From Maylandia zebra (lineage: Eukaryota > Chordata > Actinopteri > Cichliformes > Cichlidae): a DNA stretch of 64,000 nt. The position numbers and the translations under genes were made by a program. The notes below the pieces were generated by a model. The model had not been told where the DNA came from. It saw only the letters and a list, made by a program, of their open reading frames with translations, and searched no databases. Below, in pieces: positions 11,507-56,477 of this stretch. Positions within the stretch are counted from its first letter, which is position 1. Every line of letters starts with the position of its first letter. Where the stretch lies: NCBI RefSeq assembly GCF_041146795.1, contig NC_135183.1:9559340-9623339 (forward strand), written 5' to 3'.

Positions 11507-13168
11507 ATGGAAAGAAAAATTATTTGCTGGATAATACTGCTTGGACATTTTCATGCAGCACAGAGTAAGTAGTTATTACAAGTCATATCTGTATCATTGT
11601 TTGTGGGATAGTAAGAACTAAATTATATTTATTTTAAAGTAAATAAATGTTCCAGGATAACTGCATGCTTTCAGTGCATCCTCAAAAAATAATTAATATT
11701 CTCATAAAAACAAAATGTCAACTGTCCAGACGACTTCCATATTTATTCCATATTTCCACAAATAAGCTCAAACCTGGACTGAATTGTTGTTTAGCTGTTA
11801 GCCATTTCAAAGTACTGAGTAACGACAGGGTAAGTACATGCACTAGAGCTAGAAGAAAGTATCATTCCCAATGCACATTTAGGTTACATGTATAAAATAA
11901 TACAGTACCTTAGTAAATTGGGTCGGAGATGGATGGATCAACAGCTCTAGATTGCATTCTGGATAATACATTTTGGACAATATCCATGGAGACGAAAGGG
12001 AAGTGCAAAGAAAACCAAAAGATTCCATATAAATGAAATGGTAAAAAGACTGATCAGCATTGTTTAATATGACTGGTAGACAATTCTTGTGGCATTTATA
12101 CATTAAAATAAAATAAAGGAAGTAGTTAAAATTATACATGGAGCAAACATATCAAATTATAATATAGAGGGTATTATTAACCCTTTCACGCATAGTGGTC
12201 ACTACCGTGAACAGCTATTCAAAGACTGTTTCCTTGTATTTGTGTTAGTGTTGAATGTATACATGCACATAAACTACTACATTGGACACTCATGTGTCAC
12301 TCTATACCCTGCCACCCACTGGTCTTTCAACGTTATTTTCATTGCAATTATTGTTATTTAACCCTGTCATGGATGAATTATGACAACCTCCAGTAGCGGG
12401 TTGGCAGGGGATTTACTGGCTGGCTGGAGCAGCATCTAATAACCAACTCGCAAAATAAAACAAAATAAAAACAAACCAACAAACACGAAAACACCAGACA
12501 TTATGATACAGACTTATAATTTGCACCGATGTTTTTTCGAAACTCTACAAAGTGAGCGCGAGAGCCCTCGGTGCGCCTGCTTGCTGCTGTGCTGAAGTCA
12601 AAGTAAACTTTATTGTCATCTCCGCTATAAACAGTACAGTATAAAGAGAGACAAGACGACGAGGCTCCAGTTATAACAGTGCGAGTAAATGTCACACAGT
12701 GGAAATCTGTGTTTTTATGTTTTATCAATCTGTGTACTGGTACATAGTGTTGATTTCATTTGCATGATTTGATTGTGATATTTATATTGCATGGTTTTAT
12801 CCTCATATTTATATTATGTATTTTAGTGTTGTTGCACAATATTCTTCTAATCCACTGTGGACTAAGCAGACAATTGTAGGCACCTGTGAGGTGGGGGCGT
12901 TCCCCGAGGTGGCCTATCAGCCGCCAGGCTTACCTGTTAAAGGGGATAGTGAGTGCAGAGACAAAAGAACGACGCACAAAAGGTGAGCAGGAGAAAAAGA
13001 AACGTGTGTAAGCCCACACCTCACAGGTGCCTACAATTGTCTGCTTAGTCCACAGTTGGAGGAACTGCTGCCTGACTGTGGGGTGCAACGAGCCTTCGGT
13101 GATCCAGTCCCAGCGGCATACTATGCATACTCTCTCTCTTCATATGAATTTTGTGTATCGTTGCACCC

Positions 13169-13212
<44 letters not shown>

Positions 13213-17900: not shown

Positions 17901-20900
17901 ACCACCAACCACTACAACAGCACCTTCGACAACAACACCGACAACACTAACATCTACAACAGCACCTCCAGCCACAACACCACCACCAACCACTACAACA
18001 ACACCAACCACAGTTACAACAACACCAACAACAACTACAACAACACCTTCAACCACCACAACAACCACCACTACAACAACACTAACCACCACTACAACAA
18101 CACCTACCCTTACAACATTACCAACTACCGTTACAACAACACCAACAACCACTACAACAGCAACTCCAACCACCACTACAACACCACCACCAAGCACTAC
18201 AACAACACCACCAACCGCTACACCACCACCGACCACTACAACAGAACTTCCAACCATGACAATGACAACACCACCCACTGCAACAGCACCTTTGATGACA
18301 ACACAAACCACTACCATAACACCTCTGACCACTACAACAGCACCCCCAGCCACATCAACACCCCCAACCACTACAACATTACCAACCACCACTATAACAA
18401 CACCAACAACCAATAGAACAGCACCTCCAGCCACAACAACACCACCAACCACTACAACAACACCAACCACCATTACAACAACCAAGACAACAGCTCCACC
18501 AACCGCTACAACAACACCACCAACTACTACAAAATTACCAACCACCACTATAACAACACCACCAACCACAACAACAGCACCTCCAACCACCATTACAAGA
18601 ACACCACCAACCACTACAACACCACCAACAACCACTACAACAGCACGTCCAACCACCACTACAACACAACCACCAACCGCTACAACAACACCAACAACCA
18701 CTACAACAGCACCTCCAACCACCACTACAACAACACCCCCAACCACAACACCTGTACCACCAACCACTACAACAGCTCCTTCGACCACAACAACAACAAC
18801 ACAAACCATTATAACAGTACCTCCAACCACAACAAAACCACCAACCACTACAACACCACCACCAACCACCACTATAACAACACCACCAACCACTACAACA
18901 CCACCACCAACCACTACAACAACACCAACCACCATTACAACAACTCCAACAACCACTACGACAACATCACCAACCACTACACCAGCACCTCCAACCACCA
19001 CTATAACAACACCACCAACCATTACGACAACACCACCAACCACTACAACAGCACCTCCGACCCCGACAACAACAACACCAACAACTACAACAGCACGTCC
19101 AACCACCACTACAACAACACCACCAACCAATAGAACACCACCACCAACCACCACTATAACACCACCACCAACCGCTACAACAGCACCTCCGACCACGACA
19201 ACAACACCAACCACTACAACAACACCAACCACCAATACAACAACTCCAACAACCGCTACAACAGCACCTCCGACCACGACAACAACAACACCAACCACTA
19301 CAACAGCACCTCCAACCACCGCTACAACAACACCACCAAGCACTACAACAGCACCATCAACCATTACAACAGCGAAAGGTGAGTCTAATTTCTTGGAAAA
19401 ATATATAGCATATGATAATACACTGAGACTTAAACAGATACCATATGGCTGAATAGATCCTAATGTGTGTTAACACCATGCTTGTTAAATAAATGTCTAA
19501 CATACCACACAGAGTGAATGGGTTAAATGCAGAGAGGAATTTCCCCACGGGGATCAATAAAGTATACATTATTATCATTATTAGAATTTCGATCCATAAT
19601 CAAAGGAGCTTGCAAAGAAAAGCATCTGGACTTCTTTAAGTTACTTGAAGACGTTTCACCTCTTATCCTAGAAGCTTCTTCAGTTCTAAGGTCAAATGGT
19701 GGAGAGTCCCAGATATAAACCTAGTGGGAGTATCCCCCCACAGAGGGACAAAAGGACCCCCTGATGATCCTCTAATCGCCTGAGCCAAGGTGTGAAACTG
19801 GGTGTGGGTCCCAATCAGCCAGAGTTTCGGGTGAGTTCATTGTGAAACCTGGCCCCACCTTATCATGCGAATTCCTGAGATCAGATGGCCCAGGATGTGA
19901 GTGGGCGTTCAGGCGTCTGGGAAGGGAACTCAAAACTGGATTATAGATGGCAGAGAGTTGGTGTCGTAAACCACCGCCTCTGTTCAAAGATGGTCGCTCA
20001 CAGCGGACATAGATGGCTTCTTTCACTCCTCTTTCAAACCATCTGTCCTCTCTGTCCAAAATGTGAACATTGGCATCCTCGAAAGAGTGTCCTTTATCCT
20101 TAAGATGCAGATGGACAGCTGAGTCTTGTCCTGTGGAGGTGGCTCTTCTTCTATGTTGTGCCATGCGCTTGTGAAGTGCCTGTTTGGTCTCTCCAATGTA
20201 GAGGTCTGGGCATTCCTCGCTGCACTGTACAGCATACACCACATTGTTAAGTCTGTGTTTTGGCGTTTTGTCTTTTGGGTGAACCAGTTTTTGTCTGAGC
20301 GTGTTGCTGGGTCTGAAATGCACAGGGATGTCATGCTTGGAGAAAACCCTCCTGAGTTTTTCTGATACACCGGCTACATAGGGGATGACAATGTTGTTGC
20401 GTCTGTCCTTCTTATCCTCCCTCGCTGGTGTCTGATCTTCTTTTCTGTGCCTCTTTGCTGACTTTAAGAACGCCCATTTAGGATAGCCGCAAGTTTTGAG
20501 TGCTTCCTTTACATGTGTGTGTTCCTTCTTTTTTTCCTTCAGGCTTAGAGGGAACATGTTCTGCCCGGTGGTGTAGGGTCCTAATTACTCCAAGTTTGTG
20601 TTCCAGAGGGTGATGGGAGTCAAACAGGAGGTACTGGTCCGTGTGTGTGGGCTTCCGGTAAACTTCGATGTTGAGGTTGCCATTCTCTTCAATGTGCACG
20701 GCGCAGTCCAGGAAAGGCAAACAGTTGTCCTTTGTGTCTTCCCTGGTGAACTTGATGTTTTTATCCACAGCGTTAATGTGCGCAATGAAGGATTCCACTT
20801 CTTGCGTCTTGATTTTGACCCAGGTGTCGTCTACATATCTGTACCAGTGGCTGGGTACTCTTCCTTTGAAAGAGCCAAGAGCCTTCCTGTCCACCACCTC

Positions 20901-22986
20901 CATGTAAAGGTTGGCTACAATAGGTGACACGGGGGAGTCCATGGCACAGCCATGTTTTTGTCTGTAAAAGCCTTCATTGTCTCCCTGGATTTTGAGGGGG
21001 ACTGAGAAACATGGAGAAGCACTGCTTACTTCACATGTCCAAAGAAAGCTGTTAGTTGCAGCCTACCTCAATCTATAGCTACCACACTCGTGTCAGAGGC
21101 AGACCACTTTCAGACTGCCGTAACTGAAAGTCACTATGAAGTGGCAGCTGTAGTGGTAAGGGCATTAATGTGTTTACTTCATGTTCGCTGCTATAAAGTA
21201 ATCAGTAACTAATTACTGATTACTTATTTTCAAAAGTAATTAATTACTTAGTTAGTTACTTTTTAAAAACACGATTTACAACCTGAAGAGGTGATAAAGT
21301 GGTAGATCTTTCAGCCCAATTCTACTTTTTCTGCATAATCCATTATACAAAATGTAACCAAATGGAAAAGCATCTTTTTTTAACTTGTTTTATCAGTTTT
21401 AATCTTTTAACTTTATGCATCAAGCAAAAATTAAATTATATGCACCATTCTTTGACTTGAATAAATTAGTTTAACATTTAAACCTATTTTCTGCACATTC
21501 CAGCCCATAAAATAAAATATTTTTTGTGTTTTCACTCAGTCTTTCAAATAGATGCAAGTATAACACAGCAGAAAATAAATAAAGTCAAAGACTAACGGTC
21601 CTTTTGCTCTATTTTCACTTGTAAAGCAGGAGTGGGGTAGGCGGAGGTTTACCCTGGTGCAGGTGTGCTGCAGCGGTCAGTGGAAGAATCCGCGAGTTTC
21701 TCTGTGAATTTCCCATTACGGCGTAGCGCACGCGGTGCTTGTTTAGGGGGTTTTTTTTCGCTGTAAAAATAAGTTTTCTTCCCACGCACAACGAACATTA
21801 ATGTTTTTGTCACTTTTTATGGAATCAAACTCAAAGTAAGGTCAGTACTTCCACACTTTAAACGCTGCACGCTTATACTCTCTCCCGCACTGATATATTA
21901 TCCATTGTTGATCTGCACACAGCTGATCAACAATGGATCACGAACGTTGCACTCGCTTACGTCACTGTCATGAGACATTCTCGCAAAAAAGTCACGGTTT
22001 TAGTAACGCAGTAACGCAGCGTTCCTATGGGAAAGTAACAGTAATCTAATTACCGTTGTTGCAATAGTAATCCCTTACTTTACTCGTTACTTGAAAAAAG
22101 TAATCAGATTACAGTAACAAGTAACGCATTACTGCCCATCTCTGGTGACTATAATGCAGCTGCTGGTCTATTTTTCTGTTGTATTACTGTTATATTGGTA
22201 ACCAGGCTTACAGTACACAAGCTACTTAAGGTGTGTTGTTCTGCTAAGGTCGTTCCACTCACCAGCTAGTTAGAATTGGTGGAATGAGACAAATGTTTGT
22301 GAGGAAAACACAGGGAGGTGCATCCCATAGTGAGACGTCTCACTTATGCTACTCTGAGAACTGAGGTTATGCAAGTAACATAAAGTTTTTACCGGTTTCA
22401 GCAACAGATTGAATGAGATTTTTAAAATGAAATTGTTACAAAAAAATACTTTATCTTTACATTGTCCTTTTGCCAATGGCAACACATTTGTTTCTTAAAA
22501 TACAAAAATATATATGGGTTTCAGCTGTAAATTAAATCAGTACTTTCAGGTTATTAATTAATCATATTGTCCTAAAAGAACCAGAAGTGTGTCACAAAGT
22601 GAGACTGAATTGCATTTTAAAAATGTATATTCTTTATATTATTTTATTATTGACTTCTAAATGCAATGTTTTCAAACTCTAAAGCCCTGCAAGCACTGGC
22701 ACATATGAAGATGAGGATAACTACCTACGGAGAGGTCAGCAATGCAACCATCATTAAACTTATTGAAGAGGTATGCCTATAAAATTATATTATTATATTC
22801 ATATAATATATTTAAAATTTGTTTTCTTTGTGGATTATTTAAACTTGCTTTTGAAACTGAAGTAAATATTTAGATGTTTAGTCTTTGTGTTTTCTCTCTT
22901 TTTAGTTTTTTAGCAACCAGATCCTGAATGGAACAGCCCACAGTCTCTCTGTGACAAATATTCAACAAGTGAGAGTTGGCCCATAA
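11507..22986 (+). CDS. Secreted mucin-like protein 1 (four exons, about 1445 aa)
   Basis: Exons: 11507-11564, 15266-19378, 22685-22770 and 22906-22986, all with GT-AG borders and matching phases (1, 1, 0). The first encodes a signal peptide, MERKIICWIILLGHFHAAQ. The second is a 1371-residue Thr/Pro/Ala domain, almost entirely TTAPPTT-like, expected to be densely O-glycosylated. The last two encode a conserved module starting ALQALAHMKMRITTYGEV and ending VTNIQQVRVGP, with N-glycosylation sites NAT and NGT. There is no transmembrane segment, von Willebrand or cysteine-knot domain, so it is probably a secreted monomeric mucin of mucus or egg/skin surfaces (inferred). A polyadenylation signal lies at 23020-23025. 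Intron 1 is swollen by transposons and intron 2 by a Penelope element. The family is not recognised by name. Confidence 0.8.
12855..13055. repeat. 39-bp perfect inverted repeat
   Basis: Arms at 12855-12893 (CTGTGGACTAAGCAGACAAT...) and 13017-13055 are exact reverse complements over 39 bases, separated by 123 bases. The RNA or single strand would form a strong hairpin. There are no coding signs. It may be the terminal or subterminal structure of a small DNA element. Confidence 0.9.
13146..13235. repeat. 90-bp perfect palindrome around (TA)18
   Basis: GAATTTTGTGTATCGTTGCA plus CCCCTAA is followed by 36 bases of TA repeat and then the exact reverse complement, giving a 90-bp perfect palindrome. 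The right arm is also the left terminal repeat of the element at 13211-14930. The palindrome therefore looks like two transposon ends abutting head to head through the TA microsatellite. Confidence 0.9.
13211..14930. mobile_element. DNA transposon with GGGTGCAACGATA ends
   Basis: The left end reads AGGGGTGCAACGATACAC followed by GGTTCGGTTCGATA. The right end is the near complement (CGAATATCGTTGCACCCGTAA at about 14912-14932, preceded by CCGAACCGAAAGC). The interior is 1.7 kb with no long transposase reading frame, so it is a non-autonomous copy. It contains a second hairpin (14699-14818). TA-rich flanks at both ends suggest insertion into TA repeats. Superfamily not determined. Confidence 0.6.
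14699..14818. repeat. 43-bp imperfect inverted repeat
   Basis: Arms 14699-14741 and 14776-14818 are reverse complements with two mismatches. The 34-base loop includes GCCTAGGCGGAGTAGTCG. It lies near the right end of the 13211-14930 element and would extrude as a long hairpin. Confidence 0.85.
15266..19378 (+). repeat. Mucin repeat exon of gene 1 with 876-bp higher-order repeat
   Basis: The 4.1-kb exon consists of degenerate ACN/CCN/GCN codons. Two large units align at an offset of 876 bases (292 residues): 15535-16410 and 16411 to about 17165. Both contain the marker phrases KAPTTTTGPMTS and TTAVPATTTAPPTSTTTAPP. A partial third unit follows at 17170-17455. From about 17460 the composition shifts to TTTPTTTT with few alanines. 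Small differences between the two units (for example IITP versus ITVP) show they are separate copies rather than an assembly echo. Confidence 0.9.
19509..19582 (+). mobile_element. SINE 3' tail fragment
   Basis: GTGAATGGGTTAAATGCAGAG followed by CGGGGATCAATAAAG repeats the tail of the SINE at 6714-6915. Only the 3' part is present, next to a Penelope-like element in intron 2 of mucin gene 1. Confidence 0.6.
19590..21000 (-). mobile_element. Penelope-like retroelement, 5'-truncated
   Basis: On the minus strand the first part (20990-20478) encodes the end of a reverse transcriptase: MDSPVSPIVANLYMEVVDRK, the catalytic YVDDTW, and a thumb-like segment to about residue 154. A second frame (20557-19772) carries a basic linker and a GIY-YIG endonuclease: VVYAVQCSEECPDLYIGET and KRMAQHRR. 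The two frames overlap at 20478-20557, indicating a frameshift. Order RT then GIY-YIG defines canonical Penelope elements (Neptune/Poseidon type in fish). The untranslated end at 19590-19760 (GACGTTTCACCTCTTATCC and GAAGCTTCTTCAGTTC) is typical of the family. It lies antisense in intron 2 of mucin gene 1. Inactive. Confidence 0.85.
21190..22146. mobile_element. hAT-like MITE with AGTAAC/GTTACT-rich ends
   Basis: Both ends are dense in alternating GTAAC and GTTAC motifs, and the right end is ATTACTGCCCATCTCTG. About 270 bases of the right part (21880-22146) recur at 49113-49385, including CTCTCCCGCACT, GATCCATTGTTGATCTGC and TCGCAAAAAA. No transposase is visible. It lies in intron 2 of mucin gene 1. 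Confidence 0.6.
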
Positions 22987-23667
22987 AAGCTTTGCATGGA
23001 CAGAAGTCAAAAGTGACTGAATAAAGACAACAATTCAAGGATGTATTTGGTTTAACATAATGTGAAGCAGCAGTATGACTGAACTGTCATACTGCCTCTT
23101 CACATGTCTTGAAATAAAGCAAGCCATCAATTTACAATTCAAGAAAAGAATTTCTGAGTAAAAAAGAAGATTAAATTACAACCAGCTTTGTAATTCCACA
23201 CCTTTGCCTGTATTTTACATAAATATGAGAATTGGAAATGTGCTCTTGGTGTGAGTGTCAACTTGAAAAGTATAATAGAAATCTCAAACCAGGAAATTTG
23301 ATCTGTCACAGATTTGTAAGAGGCGTTATCAGTTCTTCAGCTCGAGAAGCAGAGGTCACTCTGACAAGCCTGGTAACCAAAAACTGTAAAGCTGGCTTCT
23401 TGCTTATATAGACAAAGAAAAGTGAGTGAAGCATACCAAGTGCATGAATACTGTCCCTCAAATCGGGAAAATCAATTGTCTGTCAGATATTACTGGCAGA
23501 ACTTGTTATTATGAGTGATTCTGTTGTACTCAAGGTCACCTTTCCAGTTCATTGGCAAGACAGAATTTGAAAGCATTCCTTTGTATTTTACTTTAAAGAA
23601 TAACTAAAATTTGGAGGATGTACAACATACTGTGTGTTCAGAGAAACTCTGAGAAAGTTTCTGTCAC
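22987..23667 (+). repeat. 3' flank unit shared downstream of every mucin copy
   Basis: Sequence after the stop codon of gene 1 (AATAAA at 23020 and 23113; then a CAGATTTGTAAGAGGCG...CTTCAGCTCGAGAAGC...GTGAGTGAAGC block) recurs after gene 2 (33670-34010, displaced by a LINE), gene 3 (44738-45430) and gene 4 (more diverged, to about 57380), and as a relic at 47064-47830. It marks the extent of the ancestral duplicated unit. No coding capacity. Confidence 0.8.
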
Positions 23668-24722
23668 AAGCATCAGGGATCACTGCAGTCTGGAGAGAAT
23701 GGTCAAGAAAAATCCATCCTTCTTTTGATATAGGATAAATTTGAATAAAAATGAACTAATGCCTATACGTGTGAGTAACTCCTCTTAGCTACAAAACCTC
23801 ACGTTTAGTATAACTTATGAGAGGTTCACTCTGGGTATTCAGGATACAAAGTGCTGGCAACCTAATGCAGTTAACAAACGTGTCGCCAAGAGGGAAACTA
23901 CTCGCTTGGCGACACAAAGCAGTCATCTCCTCTGTGAATAACTCAATGGAGCGTGCTGGGAAAAAGTCAGTAGGTGGCACCATAGTTGCTCTTGTTGCAA
24001 AGGCCAATATCTTCTGTAATTTGGAAAGTCCTTCTTATTCTGCAAAACAGAAAATGAAAACAATATGCTTTAAGGTATCTTTATATTATCTCATTTGGCC
24101 TAAATAAATTGCCAATGTGTCATGTCTGAGTTGTTTTCCTGAATGGACACAAAATGCAGACACGATGTCTAAGTTCATTGTGTTTATTTATAGTGAATGA
24201 TTTGCAAATAAAGACAATTGAAACTTCAGAACGTTAGTGGTAGCAGGCAACTCCAAGACGTCTGATCCTCAACCTCTCAGTTACAAAAGATACCCGTCAA
24301 CACAATTGCTTCTTCCTTTCACTTTAGTAACTCATGCGTTTCATCTTTCAACAGTCTCAAGGAACTATGTAAAAATGTTATTACAACTGAGAGGATACTT
24401 AAGGAGCAATGGAAGCTGTGTAGTCACTGTTATACAAGTATGTTATGTAATATAAAAAATTCAGAAATGTGTTTATTGTAAACTAAATTGCCAATTACTT
24501 TCTGCATCTTGGAAAAAAAATCTCTCCAGAAGGTAACAACCATCTGCTCAGCAGCTCTTCTGTTGCTAGATGAGATAGATGAAAAGATCATCCACCTAAA
24601 TCAACATCTTCCTCATTTTTGCCTAATTTACCTGAGAATTGTATACAGATCATCAAGTTGTGATCATAAGATATCCTTTGGAGACATGCAAGGCTTCCTT
24701 CTGCACAGCAGCGTGTTTTATA

Positions 24723-25250
24723 CAGGGAGTGCAGAATTATTAGGCAAGTTGTATTTTTGAGGAATAATTTTATTATTGAACAACAACCATGTTCTCAATG
24801 AACCCAAAAAACTCATTAATATCAAAGCTGAATGTTTTTGGAAGTAGTTTTTAGTTTGTTTTTAGTTTTAGCTATTTTAGGGGGATATCTGTGTGTGCAG
24901 GTGACTATTACTCTGCATAATTATTAGGCAACTTAACAAAAAACAAATATATACCCATTTCAATTATTTATTTTTACCAGTGACACCAATATAACATCTC
25001 CACATTCACAAATATACATTTCTGACATTCAAAAATAAAACAAATCAGCGACCAATATAGCCACCTTTCTTTGCAAGGACACTCAAAAGCCTGCCATCCA
25101 TGGATTCTGTCAGTGATCACCATCTGTCAGTGAACGATGGTGATCGTTGACCACCTTTAACGTGACTTGACCTCCTTTTATTGTGGTTACATGAATATGC
25201 ATAGGGTCATTAACATATAACATCTTACATAGGTATACATGTGAACAAAG

Positions 25251-25297
<47 letters not shown>

Positions 25298-26481
25298 GGG
25301 GGTCAGAGTGTGGCCCCATAAACGACTTCCCTTAACCTGCTGGTCTGGAAAATCCAACAGTTCATCTATATGTAAAAAGGCGCTTAGACTAAAACTGACA
25401 TAGCTACGTTAATCCTACCGTAAAACAATAAAACAAGGTACGACCTTTTCCCATGCTCCCAGGGTGTAGGTGTGCATTCCAGAGTGGAATGCACACAAAG
25501 TTTGCAGACTATTAAGGATCAAACCTCTACCAATCTAAAACTAATTATAAAACTCTAAGCATATATAAGTAGATATTTCTAAGCATAAATGACAATCGAC
25601 AATACAAAACCTAACAGAAGGTGTCTTCCAGAAACTGGCAGTAGGACTGGGAGTTGAACTTGACTCCATCCTCAACCCGAAAAGGCCCAACAAGCTCATC
25701 TTTGATGATACCAGCCCAAACCAGTACTCCACCTCCACCTTGCTGGCGTCTGAGTCGGACTGGAGCTCTCTGCCTTTACCAATCCAGCCACGGGCCCATC
25801 CATCTGGCCCATCAAGACTCACTCTCATTTCATCAGTCCATAAAACCTTAGAAAAACCAGTCTTGAGATATTTCTTGGCCCAGTCTTGACGTTTCAGCTT
25901 GTGTGTCTTGTTCAGTGGTGGTCGTCTTTCAGCCTTTCTTACCTTGGCCATGTCTCTGAGTATTGCACACCTTGTGCTTTTGGGCACTCCAGTGATGTTG
26001 CAGCTCTGAAATATGGCCAAACTGGTGGCAAGTGGCATCTTGGCAGCTGCACGCTTGACTTTTCTCAGTTCATGGGCAGTTATTTTGCACCTTGGTTTTT
26101 CCACACGCTTCCTGCGACCCTGTTGACTATTTTGAATGAAACGCTTGATTGTTCGATGATCACGCTTCAGAAGCTTTGCAATTTTGAGACTGCTGCATCC
26201 CTCTGCAAGATATCTCACTATTTTTGACTTTTCTGTGCCTGTCAAGTCCTTCTTTTGACCCATTTTGCCAAGGGAAAGGAAGTTGCCTAAAAATTATGCA
26301 CACCTGATATAGGGTGTTGATGTCATTAGACCACACCCCTTCTCATTACAGAGATGCACATCACCTAATATGCTTAATTGGTAGTAGGCTTTCGAGCCTA
26401 TACAGCTTGGAGTAAGACAACATGCATGAAGAGGATGATGTGGACAAAATACTCATTTGCCTAATAATTCTGCACTTCCTG
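24723..26481 (-). mobile_element. Tc1/mariner (Tc3-like) transposon, defective
   Basis: Inverted ends CAGGGAGTGCAGAATTATTA and TAATAATTCTGCACTTCCTG are flanked by TA. Copy A keeps the empty site (near 5387), proving a TA target duplication. On the minus strand a transposase starts at 26263: MGQKKDLTGTEKSK, paired helix-turn-helix segments (CSSLKIAKLLKRDHRTIKRF; PKSTRCAILRDM), then the first catalytic Asp in KVLWTDEMRVSL. After that the frame breaks, and the region expected to hold the second Asp and the Glu is replaced by unrelated sequence with a GT/G microsatellite (25255-25302). It cannot be active. Confidence 0.85.
25255..25302 (+). repeat. (TG)n followed by a G homopolymer
   Basis: About 13 TG units run directly into some 22 G residues inside the defective Tc1-type element. 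Such tracts are prone to length error in sequencing. Confidence 0.9.
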
Positions 26482-28860: not shown

Positions 28861-28952
28861 GGAGGGTGGAGCATTTCATGATCTAAGTACAATGCACAGT
28901 CACACCTAAAAACAGTCTGCGCTGAGAGCAGTGACAAGTAACTACAACCACC
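28861..28952 (+). promoter_or_regulatory. Conserved proximal promoter of mucin gene 2
   Basis: Nearly identical to 11415-11506 (GGAGGGTGGAGCATTTCATG, GTACAATGCACAGTCACACC, CTAAAAACAGTCTG, CTGAGAGCAGTGA). The TATA-like stretch reads CCTAAAAACAG here instead of CATAAAAACAG, one possible weakening. Function inferred from conservation only. Confidence 0.45.
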
Positions 28953-29160
28953 ATGGAAAGAAAAATGATTTGCTGGATAATACTGCTTGGACATTTTCAT
29001 GCAGCACAGAGTAAGTATTTATTACAATGTGGGATTAATAATGAGCAAGAATAAATATTCAAAAGATAAAAAACACAGCTCTTTCAAATTGAACTGCGCT
29101 TTAGTTTCCTTTTTAGATACTGCTATCTTTTAAAAGATTATTTTACGTTCCATACAACAG

Positions 29161-29246: not shown

Positions 29247-29619
29247 CACTGTTATATACTAACAAAATGCATATTTACAGTACAAGAGAAACTTGTAGGC
29301 AAAGTGAGAATGATACAATAAATAATCATGTAAGGGTTGGAAAGTCAAACTGCTTAATAGTTATCTTCAAAACTGTATCAACAGTCATGACAACAGCACA
29401 AAGCACAAGTGGAGCATCAACCACCACAACTGCACCTCCAACAACAACTAATGCAGCTGCGACTACCACATCAGCAGCACCAACAATAGCTACAGCAACA
29501 CCAAATAACGTGACCGCAGCACCAACCACCAAAACTGCAGTACCATTTATTACAACAACACCTCCGTCCATCACAACAGCAGCTCCAACCATCACAACTG
29601 CAGCTCCAACCACCACAAC

Positions 29620-30079
29620 TGCTTTTTAACTTTATTGACAAACAACAGTATCAGCGCAACGGAGGCTAGACCGTCCCATTACACAAGCCTCGCACTTCCG
29701 GCCTTAGCGGTCTTTGAGTACGCGGCCCTTGAGGATCGTTGAGGCTGTGTACTTTAAGGCTGCAGACCCTGAATTGGGATACAGCCTCTGTGTTTCATGT
29801 AGTCTGTGTTGCGTCGTCTGTGTTCCTACCCTCCATGTCCATCTCCCGGTCAGTCTGTACATCATCGTCATGGTTTTCTGAGTCTCCTTAGTTTATCAGT
29901 ATCTGTTTCCCAGTTTAGTTTAGGTTCAGTTTAGTCACGGTGTTTCTGCTTTGTGTTGAGACCTGTCATCAGCCACAATAAAGGCTCGCTTTCAGTTTAA
30001 GTTTACTCCGGTCTACTCCCTTGTGTTCGCAGCTGGGTCCACCACACACACCCCCACAAGGTCTGTCCCCTCAGATCGT
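29620..30079. mobile_element. Composite insertion inside mucin gene 2 exon
   Basis: The flanks on both sides are ACC-ACC-ACA-ACT-GCA mucin repeats, while the interior is not. The left part reads, on the minus strand, as a retroposon tail ending GTCAATAAAGTTAAAAA. The right part resembles an LTR, with CAATAAAGGCTCGC near 29978 and an end in CAGATCGTGACA. No target duplication can be told apart from the host repeats. It introduces an in-frame stop. Confidence 0.55.
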
Positions 30080-31289
30080 GACACCTCCGACCACCACAAC
30101 TGCAGCACCAACCAATACAACTGCAATAACACTCATTACAGCATCAACTTCAGTTATCACAACTTCAGCACCACCAACAAAAACAACAGCCACAGAAGGT
30201 GATTCCAATATATTTGAAAAAACTATAGAGAGCATATTTATATATTAATATACATATTAATTAGAAAATTACTAGCAGCAGCCAGTAGTACGCCTCAGCC
30301 TAGCAGATGCAACTATGACATTAATTTCAAAATCCTACATTTTCTTGTTCTCGCGTTAATGGATTGACAAGGTTTTTAGAAAACTTGACCTCTGAACTCT
30401 AACCTTGAGGTTGAGGTAACTGAGATTTATACTCATGAGACTTTTAGTAGACACACCTGTGGCAATTTGCATCTCCTACATCCTACAAAATGGATGGAGG
30501 CACATCCCATAGTGAGACATCTCAGGCATGTTACTCTGAGAACTGGGGTTACGTAGGTAACCTAAACTTTGCATTTGTGTTAGCAATTGGTTGAATGAGG
30601 ATTTTTAAAATGAAATTTTTACAAAAACATTTTTATCTTTAAGTTGTCCTATTGCCACTAGCAACAAGTTTGTTCTTGAAAATCAAAAGAAATATTCATC
30701 AGTTTCAGTTGCAAACTGAAAAATAACCATAAGTATGTGACAAAGGGAGACTAAATTGCATTTACAATATATTATATAGATAATTTGGCCACATGTTGTT
30801 GTAGTTTTTAAAGTGCAGGGCTCAAATACAAAGGCAAACCTCAAATTGATAGAAGTTTTCACTCGTAGATTTTGTTGTCTTTTCATATGTGAAAAGGGTT
30901 ACATATCAATTAAAAGTTCCACAATTATATGTTCTTTTATTCACTCCTAATTGTAGTGTTTTAAATCCTAAAGCCCTGCAAGCACTAGCACATATGAAGA
31001 TGAGGATAACTTCCTATGGAGAGGTCAGCAATGCAACAATCATTAAACTTCTTGAAAAGGTATAACTATATAGAATTATCTCTTATTTACAATGAGTTTG
31101 GTTTCTGGATTCTTTAAACTTACTTTTAAGATAAAAAATTATTTGTATTTTCTTTCTCTTCAGTTTTTTAGCAACCAGATCCTGCATGGAACAGCCCACA
31201 GTCTCTCTGTGACAAACATTCAACAAGTGAGAGTTGGCCCATAAATGCCTTGCATGGATCAAAGTCCATATGAAGACATAACATGTTTA

Positions 31290-35109: not shown

Positions 35110-35156
<47 letters not shown>

Positions 35157-40400: not shown

Positions 40401-42748
40401 GGGAACTGCACAGTACAGCAACAGAAAGCCCTGCAGAGGGTCGTGCGCACAGCTGAACGCACTATGGGAACATCTTTACCAACACTGCAGGACATCTACG
40501 CTGAAAGGTGCAGATCCCGGGCCATCAGGATCACTAACGACTCCAGCCATCCCGCTTACAAACTGTTCAGGCCACTGAGGTCAGGGAAACGCCTCTGTAG
40601 CCTGAAAACAAGAACTGAAAGGTTCAGGAGGAGTTTTTACCCACAAACAGTGAGACTCCTCAATCAAAACACAAATCGGACAACATGATGGACAATTCCA
40701 TACACAGTATATAATTTTCCTTTGAGTTTTATCCTTATTTTTATTTGTATTTTATCATATACATCTGTATTTATGTAAATACGTACACTATAGCTCTTAA
40801 CTATTACAGCGTAATATTTTGCACGATATTATACATTTTTATACTTTTATATAGATATTTTTTATTATAAGTTTAGTAAGATGCACAGTCGGGGGGGGGA
40901 GTACTTTTTAGCCGGAAAAAACATTTCACTGTGTGTTGTACTAGTTATAACTACATGTGACAAATAAATAAAGAATTGAATTGAATTGAATATATGAAAG
41001 TAATGAGAAAGTGGCCACTTTCATGAGTAAATCATATAAGTTTTTACTATTTCTTTTCCATATGGGCACTGTCACAACAGCATTTGTTTTCATTCAAAGG
41101 CTTTATGGCTTTAATACCTGGTGGGCCGGTCTGTAGTCAAAATGCCCGATTTTCTGTCCCAGTCCAGCCCTGCAGGTTAATACTGGCAGTGTCACCATGC
41201 CAGCTGACTGTATTTCATCATCAGCCAGTGTTGTTCTTTATCAATATTACCAAAGTTTACCATAAGTCAGCATAGAAAGTATTTACTTGCTTTCAGGTTT
41301 TATTCAAATGTTAGTCTTTTCAGTTGTTTCCCCACTTTTTTCCTGTTTCAAAATCAAACACCAGTTTGTGAGAAGATTATCTTCTTTTTTTAACAGGCAG
41401 ATAAAGTTTTACATTGGAACTGGCTAATTTGTCAATTGTTTGTTACAAATGTTCGTATTTTAATATTCAAAAATGCTTTTGCCCAAAACATATGTGCACT
41501 ATATGTCAGTAAAAATACTATGCAAATATTGCTGTCCTTGAATGCTGAGAAAACACTGACAAAGCACTGATTGTATCTCTTGTACTTTATCAACGCAGTA
41601 TCTAAAAACTTTGCACCGTAGCGGTTAAAATCTCATTCTAATAAGAGTTAAAAGCGCATTCGGTTATTAGGTTTATAGGATTATTGAATTATGGTTAACG
41701 GTTGGTAGAATTTTTTTTTAAACATTATCTGCCAATTACATCTGCCACCCTTCTCCAAATCTGTGCCCCTACCTGGCCCCCCCAACAAAGATTTTCTAGA
41801 CACGCCACTGCTGGTGAGAGGGAAACATGAAGATGAAACCAGGAGATGTCCTTACTGAATCATCAGAGCTGAACAGGTGATGGAGAAACAGGTTTACCTT
41901 TTAGGTGACATGAATGAGTTGAAGGGAAGTTATGAACTGTTTCTGAGAGACAAATAACCCCAGGATCCTTTTTTAGGTAGCTGACAGCTGGTAACTGTGC
42001 AGGGGCGGGTCTAGCAAAGTGTTGCCAGGGGGCAGGTAGGTCATTAACAGGGAAAGGGGGGCACAAAGAAATACTTTTCTTTCTTATTCTCATTTAAAAT
42101 GTCTAGCTTTTAAAAAATAATTATCTGAATCTTACAACAAACGATTGATAGATTGATGCATATATACCATCAAAACAGTGTACATCACTGTCACAACAGT
42201 GTTTATTTTCATTCAAAGGCTTTATGATTTTTCCTATAATGGTGGGCCGGTCTCTAGTCAAAATGCCCGGGACGATTTTTCATCCCAGTCCAGCCCTGTA
42301 TGCAGCTCATCTGCAGTCTGGTGTTGCCTACATCTTCCTATTCAAAAGGCAGAATTTCCGAGTTCTGAGTACAATCGAAAGCACCACGACTGCAGTTTTT
42401 GTGTTGGATGTAAAAGGCACACATGACGCTGTGACGTAGGCTAGAATCATGGCAGCAGTCAATGACGGTCCAGGCGTAGGATTTCTCTCGTGAAAATATG
42501 CACATTATCTTTTCCTTTCTATTGGTAGGTGGCACAGTGCACTTGTGGCAAGTAAGCAAGCTAGAAGACTGGCAAAGTTATGGAAGAAACACATTAACAA
42601 GAGAATTCTGAGTAAAACCAAAGTTACTTTCCCTAGTAACTAGTTACTTTGAAAGTAACGAGTAACTTGAAGTAACTGAGTTACTTTTGAGAGAAGTAAC
42701 TAGTAATGTAACTAAGTTACTATTTTAAAGTAACTAACCCAACACTGT
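37463..42748. mobile_element. Composite transposon region bounded by CAGTGTTGGG ends
   Basis: CAGTGTTGGG at 37463 and CCCAACACTG at 42739-42748 are perfect complements. Each is followed inward by sequence rich in GTAACTAGTTAC-like motifs, as in fish hAT-type elements. Inside, a unit is present twice: 38336-38680 with 41808-42130, and a smaller one 41060-41170 with 42185-42300. The interior also hosts the LINE at 38891-40988. No transposase is recognised. It may be one 5.3-kb element with internal duplication or two related elements. The right end touches the mucin exon of gene 3. Confidence 0.55.
38891..40988 (+). mobile_element. L2/CR1-group LINE with intact RT-half ORF
   Basis: One uninterrupted frame runs through the element to the stop at 40688. 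From the N side: RKAAGPDSIPGRVL (finger region), PIPKNTRPASLNDYRPVALT, motif A FIDYSSAFNTIVP, motif [15 protein letters not shown], catalytic KFADDTVVVG, then YLGVYINEDL and the C-terminal RRL, SSHPAYKLF and RLLNQ segments. The endonuclease domain is missing. The first codons of the frame before 38891 belong to host sequence, so the apparent start at 38850 is accidental. The 3' end is TGACAAATAAATAAAG plus TTGAA repeats. AATATAT at 38884-38890 and 40989-40995 is the likely target duplication. Clean ORF implies recent insertion. Confidence 0.85.
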
Positions 42749-44737
42749 TGGTACCATAACGAGCGGCCCAACCTGTTCTATAGCCCCAACTACCGCAGCA
42801 CCAACCACAACTACCGCAGCACCAACCACAACTACCGCAGCACCAACCACAACAACTGCAGCACCAACCACAACTACTGCAGCACCAACCACAACAACTG
42901 CAGCACCAACCACAACTACTGCAGCACCAACCACAACAACTGCAGCACCAATCACAACAACTGCAGCACCAACCACAACTACCGCAGCACCAACCACAAC
43001 TACTGCAGCACCAACCACAACAACTGCAGCACCAACCACAACTACCGCAGCACCAACCACAACTACTGCAGCACCAACCACAACTACTGCAGGACCAACC
43101 ACAACTACTGCAGCACCAACCACAACAACTGCAGCACCAACCACAACTACTGCAGCACCAACCACAACTACTGCAGCACCAATCACAACTACTGCAGCAC
43201 CAACCACAACTACTGCAGCACCAACCACAACTACCGCAGCACCAACCACAACTACTGCAGCACCAACCACAACAACTGCAGCACCAACCACAACTACCGC
43301 AGCACCAACCACAACTACTGCAGGACCAACCACAACAACTGCAGCACCAATCACAATAACTGCAGCACCAACCACAACAACAGCAGTTCCAACCGCTATA
43401 ACAACAACAACAACCACAGAAGGTGATTATAAATTATTTGAAAAACATATAGCTAATGATTAACTACAGAGACTTAAAAAGATGCCTTAAATCTGAATAG
43501 ATTCTTCGGTGGGTCAACACAAGTAAATCTAAAATTCACCCGGAGTCAGAAATCTTTTAAATAGTAGAAACTGGTGCTGCAGCTGACTGTGTAAAATAAA
43601 AATGAATAAAAGATTCTGTCATGGGTGTTGTTTAATCCAAAATTACACCAATTACTTTGCTTTTTCTTATATTTATCGACCCCCTGTGTATTCCTTAGAA
43701 GCAGTTTGTACTACTATGCAGTCATTATTCACACACCTCGTCTCACTTGGGGGCATTTCTCAGCCAGATATGGCTAGCTAGTCCAACTGTCCACTGGCAG
43801 GAGTGTTTAGCTAAGCTCTGTTGTCGGACACTACATGCTTTTTCTCATCTGAGCCTGAGTCTTCATCATAGATTGATGCATTGTACCATTAACCCTCCAG
43901 TAAGGTTTTTTTATTTGTACAGTTTAGGAGTTCATGTAGCACTTCCCTGTGGTCACTCCGGCAACCAAACTGACCTGTTGGGAACAGTTCTGCCCTCTGT
44001 TCCTCTTTCACCTCTTGTCCCAATGTGCTGCTCCAGTAGGGGAGGAGTAAACCAATGATGATCTCAGGCTGTGTTTCTCAGCCTCCCCTGGCACTGTCAC
44101 CTGAACACAATGCACCACCTCCTCTGTAGCTGACCCACAAACCGCATACTCCTACTGCTTGACTAGCGAAGGCAAAGGGCCATTCCAACCTGATCTGAAA
44201 AAAGCAGCAGTGGTCCTCTGGAACAAGCCAAAGTTGGCCCCTCGCTGCCACCAGAAGGCTCAGCGCCTCTCCAAATAGAAGTAGCAGCCGCATATAAAAA
44301 TATTGGAGAGCTCAAATGCAAACTTCTGTAGTTTTGAAAGACATGTAACACTTTTCACATGGAAGACTAACAACAAAATTCAGTTTTAAAATCTTATGCT
44401 CTTTTATTCACTTCTGATTGTAATGTTTTTAAAATCTAAAGCCCTGCAAGCACTAGCCCACATAGAGATGAGGATAACTACCTATGGAGAGGTCATCAAT
44501 GCAACCATCATCAAAGTTCTTGAAAAGGTATGCCTATATAAAATTATATCTCATTTAAAATAAGTTTGCTTTGTGGATTCTTTAAACTTACTTTGAATAA
44601 TAAGAAAGTGAGATAAACATTTAGATGTTTAGTCTTTGTGTTTTCTCTCTGTTTAGTTTTTTAGGAACCAGATCATGAATGGAACAGCCCACAGTCTCTC
44701 TGTGACAAACATTCAACGAAAGAGAGTTGGCCCATAA
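42749..44737 (+). pseudogene. Mucin-like gene 3, signal exon not found
   Basis: Coding exons seen: repeat exon from a point at or after 42749 to 43422, then 44442-44527 and 44657-44737, with the same phases as genes 1 and 2. The repeat exon is about 28 copies of a 21-bp unit ([28 protein letters not shown]), very regular and ending TTTTTEG. The C-terminal module reads ALQALAHIEMRITTYGEV ... SVTNIQRKRVGP. No ATG or signal-peptide exon resembling MERK/MDKR was found between 31244 and 42748. A transposon end lies against the exon's left border. The copy may be N-terminally truncated, or may use a diverged distant first exon. The intact downstream frame hints at recent loss or continued use. Confidence 0.65.
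42784..43395 (+). repeat. 21-bp mucin tandem repeat of gene 3
   Basis: About 28 copies of the AAPTTTT unit vary mostly at the third base of two codons (ACC/ACT, ACA/ACT), plus GGA and ATC variants. The GPTTTT variant occurs at about 43091 and 43322, a spacing of 231 bases (11 units), suggesting larger internal duplications. The tract is far more homogeneous than in genes 1 and 4. Confidence 0.9.
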
Positions 44738-51115: not shown

Positions 51116-54100
51116 ATGGATAAAAGAATACTTTGCTGGATATGTCTGCTGGCATATTTTCAGACATCTTTGGCACAAAGTAAGTGTTTATTGCAAGTTA
51201 TAGCATTGTTTGCACTTTTTATATTAGACAGCTTTAGAGTGATTCAACTACAACAAATGTAGTACAATACTAAAACAAAATGATAATAGCACAGACTCCA
51301 CAAAATATTAATAATCAGCTTTTTTTAAACTGTAGTACTGTGAGCAAAATTTTGGTTACCTCCAAGAACATACATCCTGGGATCACTGGAATGCACAAAC
51401 TCCTGGAGAATGAAGACTTCAGTGATCCCATGTAACAATATGACTAGAGCATCCAATGTGCTCTAGTCATATTGTTACAATTTAATAAACACAAATAAGT
51501 TGGGGAATTTGTGTTTATTAAATTGTAACAATATGACTAGAGCACCTTGGATGAGTAGGTTTAATGACAGTTTATTAAACTGTAACATTGGATTGGGTGT
51601 ATGATATATGTAATGATATGGCATATAAAACCCATTTTCAGTTCATGTTTCAAATTTTCTGTCTACAGATGGCTTCTTTGAAACTAAGTGAAGTTGAATA
51701 TTTTCATGCTCTGCTGACCACACAGCACATATTCAAGATAAAGCTTAACATGTTCAATAAAGCTTACCTTAAGTTAGTGCTTCTAAGCTTATACAGTGGG
51801 TCAAAAAAGTATTTAGTCAGCCACCGATTGTGCAAGTTCCCCCACCTAAAATGATGACAGAAGTCAGTAATTTGCACCAGAGGTACACTTCAACTGTGAG
51901 AGACAGAATGTGAAAAAAAAAATCCATGAATCCACATGGTAGGATTTGTAAAGAATTTATTCGTAAATCAGGGTGGAAAATAAGTATTTGGTCAATAACA
52001 AAAATACAACTCAGTACTTTGTAACATAACCTTTGTTGGCAATAACAGAGGTCAAACGTTTACTATAGGTCTTTACCAGGTTTGCACACACAGTAGCTGG
52101 TATTTTGGCCCATTCCTCCATGCAGATCTTCTCGAGAGCAGTGATGTTTTGGGGCTGTCGCCGAGCAACACGGACTTTCAACTCCCGCCACAGATTTTCT
52201 ATGGGGTTGAGGTCTGGAGACTGGCTAGGCCACTCCAGGACTTTCAAATGCTTCTTACGGAGCCACTCCTTTGTTGCCCGGGCGGTGTGTTTTGGATCAT
52301 TGTCATGTTGGAAGAGGGTGCATGGGAGTTTGCCCAACCAGTCTACATGTGTTTTGTGGACTTGGAGAAGGCATTCGACCGTGTCCCTCGGGGTGTCCTG
52401 TGGGAGGTGTTGCGGGAATATGGGGTGTCTGGCCCATTGCTACGGGCCATTCGATCCCTATACAACCGTTGCAAGAGCTTGGTTCGCATTGCCGGCAATA
52501 AGTCGGACTCGTTCCCGGTGGGTGATGGGCTTCGCCAGGGCTGCCCTTTGTCTCCGGTTCTGTTCATAATTTTTATGGACAGGATTTCTAGGCGCAGCCA
52601 AGTGGCGGAGGGCTTTCGCTTTGGTGGCCTCAGAATCTCATCTCTGATTTTTGCAGATGATGTGGTTCTGTTGGCTTCATCGGGTGAAGGCCTCCAGCTC
52701 GCACTGGAACGGTTCGCAGCCGAGTGTGAAGCAGCGGGAATGAGGATCAGCACCTCCAAATCTGAGGCCATGGTTCTCAGCCGGAAAAGGGTGGAGTGGC
52801 CACTTCGGGTCGGGGATGAGTTCCTGCCCCAAGTGGAGGAGTTCAAGTATCTCGGGGTCTTGTTCGCGAGTGATGGGAGAAGGGAGCCGGAGATCGACAG
52901 ACGGATTGGGGCTGCAGCTGCAGTAATGCAGACGCTGCACCGGTCCGTCGTGGTGAAGAGGGAGCTGAGTGTAAAAGCGAAGCTCTCAATTTACTGGTCG
53001 ATCTACGTCCCTACCCTCACCTATGGCCACGAGCTGTGGGTAGTGACCGAAAGAACGAGATCGCGGATACAAGCGGCAGAAATGAGCTTCCTCCGAAGGG
53101 TGGCTGGCCTCTCCCTTAGAGATAGGGTGAGAGGTTCGGCCATCCGGGAGGGGCTCAGAGTAGAGCAGCTGCTGCTCCACATCGAAAGGAGCCAGCTGAG
53201 GTGGTTCGGGCATCTGACAAGGATGCCCCCTGGGCGCCTCCTGGGTGAGGTGTTCCAGGCATGTCCCACCGGGAGGAGGCCCCGGGGCAGACCCAGGACA
53301 CGCTGGAGAGATTATATCTCTCGGCTGGCCTGGGAACGCCTTGGTATTCCCCCGGACAAGCTGGAGGAGGTGGCTGGGGAGAGGGAGGTCTGGGCCTCTT
53401 TGCTTAGGCTGCTGCCCCCGCGACCCGGCCCCGGACAAAGCGGAAGAAGATGGATGGATGGTCATGTTGGAAGACCCAGCCTCGTTTCATCTTCAGTTCT
53501 CACTGATGGTAGGAGGTTTTGGCTCAAAATCTCACGATACATGGCCCCATTCATTCTGTCCTTAACACGGATCAGTCGTCCTGTCCCCTTGGCAGAAAAA
53601 CAGCCCCATAGCATGATGTTTCCACCCCCATGCTTCACAGTAGGTATGGTGTTCTTGGGATGCAACTCAGTATTCTTTTTCCTCCAAACACGACGAGTTG
53701 AGTTTATACCAAAAAGTTCTACTTTGGTTTCATCTGACCACATGACATTCTCCCAATCCTCTGCTGTATCATCCATGTGCTCTCTGGCAAACTTCAGACG
53801 GGCCTGGACATGCACTGGCTTCAGCAGCGGAACACATCTGGCACTGCGGGATTTGATTCCCTGCCGTTGTAGTGTGTTACTGATGGTGACCTTTGTTACT
53901 TTGGTCCCAGCTCTCTGCAGGTCATTCACCAGGTCCCCCCCTGTGGTTCTGGGATCTTTGCTCACCGTTCTCATGATCATTTTGACCCCACGGGATGAGA
54001 TCTTGCGTGGAGCCCCAGACCGAGGGAGATTATCAGTGGTCTTGTATGTCTTCCATTTTCTGATGATTGCTCCCACAGTTGATTTTTTTCACACCAAGCT

Positions 54101-56477
54101 GCTTGCCTATTGTAGATTCACTCTTCCCAGTCTGGTGCAGGTCTACAATACTTTTCCTGGTGTCCTTCGAAAGCTCTTTGGTCTTGGCCATGGCGGAGTT
54201 TGGAGTCCGACTGTTTGAGGCTGTGGACAGGTGTCTTTTATACAGATGATGAGTTCAAACAGGTGCCATTCATACAGGTAACGAGTGGGGGACAGAAAAG
54301 CTTCTTACAGAAGACGTTACAGGTCTGTGAGAGCCAGAGATTTTCCTTGTTTGAGGTGACCAAATACTTATTTTCCACCCTAATTTACGAATAAATTCTT
54401 TACAAATCCTACCATGTGAATTCATGGATTTTTTTTTCACATTCTGTCTCTCACAGTTGAAGTGTACCTCTGGTGCAAATTACTGACCTCTGTCATCATT
54501 TTAGGTGGGGGAACTTGCACAATCGGTGGCTGACTAAATACTTTTTTGCCCCACTGTACTTGAAACTCCTGTCAATATCAAATGATTGCATGGAATGACT
54601 TTGAGTTGCTACTAAGATTAGTAGACAGATTATTTTCTGTCGAGTTATTTGGAGAGGGGCCAGCAGTCTGTGGCTGTTACTGAAATTATGAATGAAAGTT
54701 TCATCGTGTTAAGTCATTCTAATCTGCGCTTAACTCACTGTCTTTAAGCAACCACAACTGCAGCACCAACCACAACAACTACAACTGCAGCACCAGCAAC
54801 CATAACTGCAGCGCCAACCACTACAACTGCACCAACAACCACTACAACTGCAACGCTAACCGCAACTGCAGCACCAACCACACCTGCGTCACCAACAACC
54901 ACTGCAGCACCAACAACCACTACAACTGCAGCACCAGCAACTATAACTGCAGCGCCAACCACTACAACTGCACCAACAACCACTACAACTGCAACGCTAA
55001 CCGCAACTGCAGCACCAACCACACCTGCGTCACCAACAACCACTGCAGCACCAACAACCACTACAACTGCAGCACCAGCAACCATAACTGCAGCACCAAC
55101 CACTACAACTGCACCAACAACCACTACAACTGCAACACTAACCGCAACTGCAGCACCAACCACACCTGCATCACCAACAACCACTGCAGCACCAACAACC
55201 ACTACAACTGCAGCACCAGCAACCATAACTGCAGCGCCATTCACTACAACTGCACCACCAACAACAACCACTACAGCTGCAGCACCGGCAACCATAACTG
55301 CAACAGTAACCACAACTACTGCACCAACAACCACAACACTAACCACCACTACAACTGCAGCACCAACCACCACTACAACTATAACACCAACCACAACTGC
55401 AGCACCGGCAACCACAACTGCAGCACCAACGAATACAACTACAGCAACAACCACAACTGCACTACCAACCACCACTACAACTACAGCACCAACCAACACA
55501 ACTACAACACCAACCATAACTGCAGCACAAACCACTACAACTACAGCACCAACAACCACAACTGCAGCGCCAACTACTACAACTACAACTAAAACTGCAG
55601 CACAAAGCACCACAACCCCTACAGAAGGGTCAACCACCATTCAAAGTATGTGATTTAAATTAAAAGTACTTAATGTGTGCAACAGTTTCTCTTCCTACCT
55701 TCTGTTGTCCTTCCAACATTCACACTCTAATACTAGGGTGGGAAACTCCAGGCCTCAAGGGTTGAAGTCCTGCAGGTTTTAGATCTCACCCTGGGTCAAC
55801 ACACTGGAATCAAATGATTAGTTCATTACCAGGCCACTGCAGAATTTCAAGACATGGTGAGGAGGTAATTTAGCCATTTAAATTAGCTGCGGTGGTTCTA
55901 AAACCCGCAGGACACCAGCACTTGAGGCCTGGAGTTCCCCCACCCAGGGTTGGACTGGGACAAAAAAACGGCCTAAGCATTTTGACTAGAGATCAGCCCA
56001 CAAAGTACTATAGGAAAAGCCATAAAGCCTCAAATGCTGTTGTGACTCCTGGTTTCATCTAAAAATCTAAAAATGTTATAGTGTAATTGTTTCAGTATTG
56101 AGGGAAATGTGCCTTATAGCAATAATCAAATGCATTTTATGATGTATAATTACTTTACACTTACCAATTATACTTTTATAATTCTTTTTTTCAGTTCCAA
56201 CAGGCCCACAAGCACTTGCACATCTAAAGATAAAGATGACTACATACGGGCAGGTTAGCAATGCAACCATCATTGCCCTTCTTGAACAGGTATAGCTATA
56301 TCTTAAAGTTTGCTTCGTACATTCTTGACTTATCAGTAATTTCACACACACAAATCATGTCTTAAAAATTCAAATGTTTAATCTCTGTGTTTTCTTTCCA
56401 TTTAGTTTAACACCAAGGTCCTGAATGGAATACCCCACATTCTCTCTGTGACAAACATTAAAAAAGTTGAAGCATAA
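51116..56477 (+). CDS. Secreted mucin-like protein 4 (four exons, about 375 aa)
   Basis: Exons: 51116-51179, 54749-55645, 56195-56289 and 56406-56477, with GT-AG borders, phases 1, 1, 0 and total length divisible by three. The signal peptide is [20 protein letters not shown]. The mucin domain of about 299 residues is rich in AAPTTTT and ATITAAP units. The third exon is 9 bases longer than in other copies (adds IPTG) and has a strong polypyrimidine acceptor. The C-terminal module reads [17 protein letters not shown] ... [10 protein letters not shown], keeping the NATII core and the phase-0 intron but with a short, acidic end. AATAAA lies at 56503-56508. Most diverged paralogue, intact. Intron 1 holds a Tc1 element carrying a LINE. 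Secretion and O-glycosylation are inferred from composition. Confidence 0.8.
51431..51544. repeat. Triple alternating inverted repeat
   Basis: Arms 51459-51496 and 51507-51544 are perfect 38-base reverse complements around a 10-base loop. A third arm at 51431-51451 repeats 21 bases (TGTAACAATATGACTAGAGC plus A) in the orientation of the last arm. The unit could fold into either of two competing hairpins. It lies in intron 1 of mucin gene 4. Confidence 0.9.
51794..54556 (-). mobile_element. Tc1-like transposon with about 200-bp inverted repeats
   Basis: The ends (CAGTGGGTCAAAAAAGTATT at left, complement of CAGTGGGGCAAAAAAGTATT at right) continue as nearly identical inverted repeats of about 200 bp and are flanked by TA. 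The minus-strand transposase starts at about 54191 ([20 protein letters not shown]), has a frameshift near 54090, and continues [22 protein letters not shown] and first catalytic Asp [11 protein letters not shown]. The LINE at 52316-53461 splits it. The end carries [12 protein letters not shown] (second Asp) and [11 protein letters not shown] (Glu), finishing at 52011. This is a DD34E enzyme with all three acidic residues recognisable, disabled by the frameshift and the insertion. Confidence 0.9.
52316..53461 (+). mobile_element. Rex3/RTE-type LINE, 5'-truncated, inside Tc1
   Basis: An open frame from [19 protein letters not shown] gives motif A, then [19 protein letters not shown] (motif B) and the catalytic FADDVVLL. 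A long C-terminal part follows: [45 protein letters not shown] and [14 protein letters not shown]. The 3' end is GCGGAAGAAGATGGATGGATGG. A 13-base target duplication TCATGTTGGAAGA lies at 52303-52315 and 53462-53474. The frame is clean, and the duplication perfect, so the insertion is young. The Rex3 assignment relies on sequence style and the GATG tail. Confidence 0.85.
54749..55645 (+). repeat. Mucin repeat exon of gene 4 with 141-bp higher-order repeat
   Basis: The phrase CACCAGCAACCATAACTGCA recurs at 54791, 54932 (one change), 55073 and 55214, exactly 141 bases apart (47 codons). The unit contains [24 protein letters not shown] sequence. After about 55260 the order breaks into irregular TTTTAAPTT units. 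Confidence 0.9.
55734..55946. mobile_element. Short MITE with long inverted ends
   Basis: GGGTGGGAAACTCCAGGCCT at the left and the complement of AGGCCTGGAGTTCCCCCACCC at the right begin roughly 50-bp imperfect inverted repeats (CTCAAG, GTCCTGC, GGTTTTA continue in both). No coding sequence. Lies in intron 2 of mucin gene 4. Confidence 0.7.

Follow-up and report, generated by a model that had tools for sequence, protein, structure and literature searches.

MUC7, a salivary mucin of placental mammals, is described in PMC4997351 as secreted, non-gel-forming and without homology to other mucins; the same account gives it a histatin-like region and places it in the SCPP cluster. Gel-forming mucins (MUC2, MUC5AC, MUC5B, MUC6 and MUC19) are secreted proteins rich in Pro/Thr/Ser (PTS) that carry the cysteine-rich vW-D, C8 and CK domains, as outlined in PMC3680472. 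In sticklebacks, spiggin forms a tandemly duplicated family of secreted mucins, which PMC4989455 derives from MUC19. Here we describe a 64,000-nt stretch of the Maylandia zebra genome (C17:9559340-9623339, forward strand; hereafter the window) that holds four copies of a gene family, g1 to g4; a fifth copy, g0, lies 5.4 kb before its left edge. We consider it probable, if not strongly so, that this is a tandem, locus-restricted family of secreted, non-gel-forming mucin genes that works like MUC7.

The likeness to MUC7, which we take as the nearest working analogue, lies in a predicted signal peptide and secretion, in-frame PTS tandem repeats contained within one exon and a product that would not form gels, as far as MUC7 is characterized in that account. 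The likeness is one of anatomy. Differences are that Pfam names an FXR-type KH gene and HPS3 as the neighbors here, and that the conserved module at the tail is of another kind. The family shares predicted secretion and PTS richness with the gel-forming mucins, but the mature chain contains no cysteine in any of the three open gene models (g0, g1 and g4), and because these models lack the cysteine-rich domains, they do not belong to that class. SEA membrane mucins (MUC1, MUC13 and sea bream I-Muc) similarly place a small C-terminal domain after a PTS region; the present family, however, has no SEA match, and its open models stop at the module, beyond which no transmembrane segment is visible by eye. 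Spiggin, as presented in its source, is alike in tandem duplication and secretion and differs in its origin from MUC19, whereas the present family has no cysteine-rich domain.

A locus-restricted family with open and broken copies

The conserved C-terminal module occurs at four sites in the window (22685-22986, 30974-31244, 44442-44737 and 56195-56477), which bears out the at least four copies proposed in a first-pass annotation made from the DNA sequence. With the g1 module as a tblastn query, g2, g3 and g4 are recovered at E values of 5.8e-22, 1.7e-20 and 2.7e-10; the similarity among the four modules exceeds chance, and g4 is the most diverged copy, with 58% protein identity to g1. Genome-wide searches for the module and the signal exon covered 962 Mb in 63 contigs and scored the best candidates, so that distant relatives could be missed. 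Two protein queries (maximum E of 10) gave five module matches, all on C17 at 9.554-9.616 Mb and spanning at most 62 kb, and neither search found a further copy beyond g0-g4 among the candidates scored. A search for the signal exon and the DNA upstream of it gave four genomic sites, those of g0, g1, g2 and g4.

Around the module, g0 and g1 share 99.6% identity across 1503 bp, and around exon 1 they share 97.8% across 1435 bp; these values indicate a recent duplication. Blocks left of g1 (window 1266-11581) recur in the g1-g2 interval (23665-29027) at 87.5-98.5% identity; the duplication unit thus includes intergenic DNA. A block in intron 2 of g1 (22314-22531) is 78% identical to one in intron 2 of g2 (30496-30715); no such block was found in the corresponding introns of g3 and g4.

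The open models comprise 2100 residues in g0, which lies outside the window, 1445 in g1 and 375 in g4, and none of the three has an inner stop. Their predicted exons (58+6078+86+81 nt in g0, 58+4113+86+81 nt in g1 and 64+897+95+72 nt in g4) add up to totals divisible by 3 and keep the splice phases 1, 1 and 0 that had been proposed for the family. Threonine makes up 62.4%, 56.1% and 47.5% of the mature chains of g0, g1 and g4, whose masses before sugars would be about 207, 142 and 34 kDa, assuming cleavage after residue 19. These features agree with the earlier description of the products as secreted and mucin-like: each of the three models has the signal peptide and long in-frame Thr/Ser/Pro tandem repeat by which the mucin class is recognized in sequence. 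An AATAAA lies about 34 nt past the g1 stop and about 26 nt past the g4 stop, as judged by eye. Predicted exons and other features are collected in Table 1.

Table 1. Predicted exons and other features of copies g1 to g4, in window positions
Feature	Position	Strand	Remarks
g1 exon 1 with start codon, encoding signal peptide MERKIICWIILLGHFHAAQ, phase-1 end	11507..11564	+	donor gtaagt; g0 has an identical stretch
g1 exon 2, open Thr/Pro repeat of 1370 full codons	15266..19378	+	acceptor caacag, donor gtgagt
g1 exon 3, module first half LQALAHMKMRITTYGEVSNATIIKLIEE after split codon	22685..22770	+	weak acceptor aaag, donor gtatgc, phase 0
g1 exon 4, module second half FFSNQILNGTAHSLSVTNIQQVRVGP and stop	22906..22986	+	
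g2 exon 1, signal peptide	28953..29010	+	
g2 repeat exon, interrupted, internal stops	29385..30198	+	
Insertion in g2 repeat exon, transposable-element-like, 467 nt taken	29623..30089	.	approximate boundaries
g2 module, two exons	30974..31244	+	30974-31059 and 31164-31244
g3 repeat exon, 5' end lost	42785..43422	+	start approximate (~42785)
g3 module, two exons	44442..44737	+	44442-44527 and 44657-44737
g4 exon 1, signal peptide, phase-1 end	51116..51179	+	
g4 exon 2, Thr/Ala/Pro repeat, open	54749..55645	+	
g4 exon 3, module first half	56195..56289	+	good acceptor ctttttttcag
g4 exon 4, module second half and stop	56406..56477	+	

The first-pass annotation assigned a signal exon and one Thr/Pro repeat exon to all four copies in the window. 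Signal exons are present only in g1 (from 11507), g2 (from 28953) and g4 (from 51116). Thr/Pro repeat exons occur in all four, that of g2 being interrupted and that of g3 having lost its 5' end. The g2 repeat exon contains internal stops and an insert that we took as 467 nt. Queried with its first 200 nt, the genome gave 41 matches from the best 40 of 1786 candidates scored: the insert itself, 39 other sites with 88-99% identity, the majority of which cover about 140-171 of the 200 nt, and one 41-nt piece. Because of these 39 other matches, we regard the insert as a high-copy and probably recent element. For g3, a window-wide tblastn search found no signal exon, and blastn over 31300-42786 found no 5' parts, with best E values at chance level for the exon-1 queries (0.33) and for the 5' ends of the repeat exons (0.052). 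The g3 array starts about 35 nt past the end of a high-copy repeat, which matches itself and 39 other sites at 96-99% identity (best 40 of 1100 candidates scored). With g2 interrupted and g3 missing its 5' end, open copies in the window number two rather than four. Overall, the observations of the first-pass annotation are partly confirmed and its interpretation is partly supported; the fifth copy, the g2 insertion and the 5' loss in g3 are features beyond those it described.

Coding potential of the repeat exons and the module

The repeat exons and the module are likely to be coding. Exact 36-mer repeats within the arrays recur at distinct offsets that are all divisible by 3 (g0, 318/318; g1, 11/11; g3, 21/21; g4, 3/3). 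After exclusion of multiples of the 21-nt unit, the same holds for all 284 remaining offsets (273 in g0, 8 in g1 and 3 in g4; g3 has none). The exon frame scores best in every sliding window along the repeat exons of g0 (287/287), g1 (193/193) and g4 (40/40). Among g1-g4, nonsynonymous divergence (dN) in the module is below synonymous divergence (dS) in six of six pairs, at ratios of about 0.27-0.78, and we judge selection on the module to be moderate.

Several observations weigh against a working mucin family. Offsets between repeats of the same array do not count as independent events. In a wrap-around alignment, gaps divisible by 3 number 73 of 99 in g0, 12 of 25 in g4 and 23 of 67 in g1, the last being at chance level. 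Identity is higher in the module exons than in the intron in only four of six pairs, with an unadjusted p<0.05 in two, a modest signal of selection. The exon-3 acceptor ends in aaag, a weak kind, in g0-g3, and only g4 has a good one (ctttttttcag); in g2, the nearest upstream AG would put a stop in phase, as judged by eye. Signal peptides were likewise judged by eye throughout, and the cleavage site of g1 looks non-canonical.

If the genes work as mucins of the MUC7 type, exon 1 would supply a signal peptide and direct export, and the single long exon would encode a Thr/Pro(/Ala) domain for which composition predicts dense O-glycosylation. The two small exons would add a tail of 50-56 residues that contains no cysteine and carries a NAT sequon. 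Because the mature chain contains no cysteines, disulfide-linked polymers or gels like those of gel-forming mucins would be impossible, and the product would instead be a soluble, hydrated, sugar-bearing brush. The tail may help folding or export, or it may dock the product to a partner or to itself. On this reading the repeat exon changes length in whole-codon steps, and the cluster grows and decays: three copies are open, g0 among them lying beyond the window, an insertion interrupts another, and the fifth lacks its 5' end. Gene anatomy, the copies, their breaks and the keeping of frame are seen in the sequence; splicing, glycosylation, fold and role are inferred from it. Should the genes be expressed, they would be a further instance of a mucin that arose outside the mucin gene families known so far, with no cysteines and a conserved tail that the libraries searched do not name, in a compact locus where open, length-variable and broken copies lie side by side. 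Genes of this kind would escape annotation that relies only on known mucin domains.

Sequence searches with the C-terminal module

The module comprises 50-56 residues without cysteine, split by a phase-0 intron. Its alignment in g1-g4 has 58 columns, of which 24 are invariant (QALAH, T, YG, V, NATII, E, F, G, H and LSVTNI), and the conserved motifs noted earlier recur as QALAH, T[TS]YG[EQ]V, NATII and LSVTNI in all four window copies. The N-glycosylation sequon NAT is kept in all five copies. The first-pass annotation had also called the module unnamed, and the profile searches support this: it matches no family in the libraries searched. Pfam gave nothing over cut-off for the four modules; below it were DUF3557 (E values of 0.011 and 0.036, two modules) and DUF1758 (E of 0.16, one module), both of which we take as chance. 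We similarly reject PDB profile matches to annexin (two sequences, best E of 0.59) and the single NCBIfam match (E of 0.11, one module). With regard to the lineage-specific family that the first-pass annotation thought plausible, pattern searches of prokaryote genomes and viral contigs gave 112 and 20 matches, and relatives were confirmed in neither set. Among the literature matches listed, no title or opening of an abstract describes anything that we recognize as this family.

Alternative explanations

SEA domains consist of two beta-alpha-beta halves, and the first-pass annotation had likened a predicted strand-helix-strand order in the module to half of a SEA or ferredoxin-like fold. The predicted order stands in part. 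Hydrophobic moments, examined in g1, g3 and g4, peak at 180 degrees (0.81-0.89) over the first strand in all three copies and at 100 degrees over the helix segment in g1 and g3, whereas the g4 helix is unclear, with its peak at 160 degrees, and the second strand is less clear, with a peak at 140 degrees. It is nevertheless unlikely, in our view, that the module is half a SEA domain left when a SEA-bearing membrane mucin, similar in kind to I-Muc, MUC13 or MUC17, lost its transmembrane tail and the other half and became secreted. We built small hidden Markov models (HMMs) of the N-half (9 sequences) and C-half (5 sequences), and of 1000 shuffles only 7 and 2, respectively, reached the score of g3 and 37 and 5 that of g1; shuffling destroys the strand/helix pattern, however, so that a small excess may be expected for any beta-alpha-beta peptide. 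The corresponding counts for g2 (40 and 104) and g4 (85 and 374) are unremarkable. Pfam SEA (PF01390) matches none of the four modules at a maximum E of 10, a search in which HMMER filters drop most weak matches, and hhalign gave probabilities of 0.3% and 0.5% against two shallow SEA alignments, one of C-halves (three from this genome and that of MUC1) and one of three whole domains. No convincing SEA half was found in 6831 open stretches of a 195-kb region including introns and flanks (best E of 0.5), and none of the 14 Pfam SEA matches in the genome (29 candidates scored) lies on C17. Compared with SEA genes of this genome, the module intron is also shifted toward the helix start, by about 7 residues as judged by eye. 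When SEA domains of this genome were compared with the PDB, one matched no SEA chain and another matched a mouse chain, presumably the MUC16 SEA domain, at an E of 0.0023. Sea bream I-Muc does show that a fish membrane mucin can combine SEA and transmembrane segments without a clear mammalian ortholog, according to PMC3680472. Being weak or negative on these tests, the half-SEA identity is not supported.

The cluster could also be decaying, with no copy giving a working protein and the arrays persisting as minisatellites from an older gene. Two of the five copies are broken, the exon-3 acceptor is weak in g0-g3, and seven of nine open frames of the window tested for domains are of reverse-transcriptase or transposase type (two of the seven below cut-off). 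We find general decay improbable, however, given that the frame is kept across arrays of 6.1 kb in g0 and 4.1 kb in g1, that dN is below dS in every module pair and that g0 and g1, although recently duplicated, are both open. A different role is somewhat easier to entertain, if still rather unlikely: the products may be secreted-matrix glycoproteins of an egg coat, a cupula, nest glue or the like, and not of epithelial mucus, with the same anatomy as in the mucin reading that we favor. Precedents are spiggin, a mucin-derived nest glue (PMC4989455), and zebrafish muc5AC, a cupula mucin with CysD domains (PMC11765562), as those sources portray them; the cysteine-free mature chains of g0, g1 and g4, in contrast, have no cysteine-rich domain of either kind. 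Most doubtful is the conjecture of self-pairing, in which the tail would be a beta-alpha-beta domain not described before and two such halves would come together as a single SEA- or ferredoxin-like unit. A cysteine-free mucin would in this way be joined into disulfide-free dimers or networks in a fish-lineage mucus with fast-changing repeat length and copy number.

Mobile elements and neighboring genes

Intron 1 of g4 hosts a Tc1-type element (51792-54558) with 203-nt inverted ends that are 97.5% identical; within it, transposase pieces (DDE_3 and HTH_Tnp_Tc3_2, both minus-strand) stand on either side of a plus-strand reverse-transcriptase frame. An open reverse-transcriptase frame of 629 codons (38799-40685; RVT_1 E of 1.3e-28) lies between g2 and g3. 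Another, on the minus strand in intron 2 of g1 (19772-21062), matches RVT_1 below cut-off (E of 3.9e-6) and appears Penelope-like by eye. One mobile-element frame in the window has a weak match to the Sleeping Beauty helix-turn-helix. Rfam gave no matches at gathering scores across the whole window.

A run of exactly 5000 N, which may be an assembly gap, occupies C17:9655840-9660839, some 32 kb beyond the right edge of the window. About 67-73 kb left of the window lies an FMR/FXR-type KH gene (PF00013 E of 3.1e-6, over cut-off; KH0 E of 0.012, below it), and HPS3 lies on the other side, about 11-23 kb beyond the right edge of the window (PF14763 E of 1.1e-28 and 9.4e-17; PF14761 E of 1.3e-25). 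Between the FXR-type gene and HPS3 is a gene left unnamed by Pfam, which we tentatively read as TTC14.

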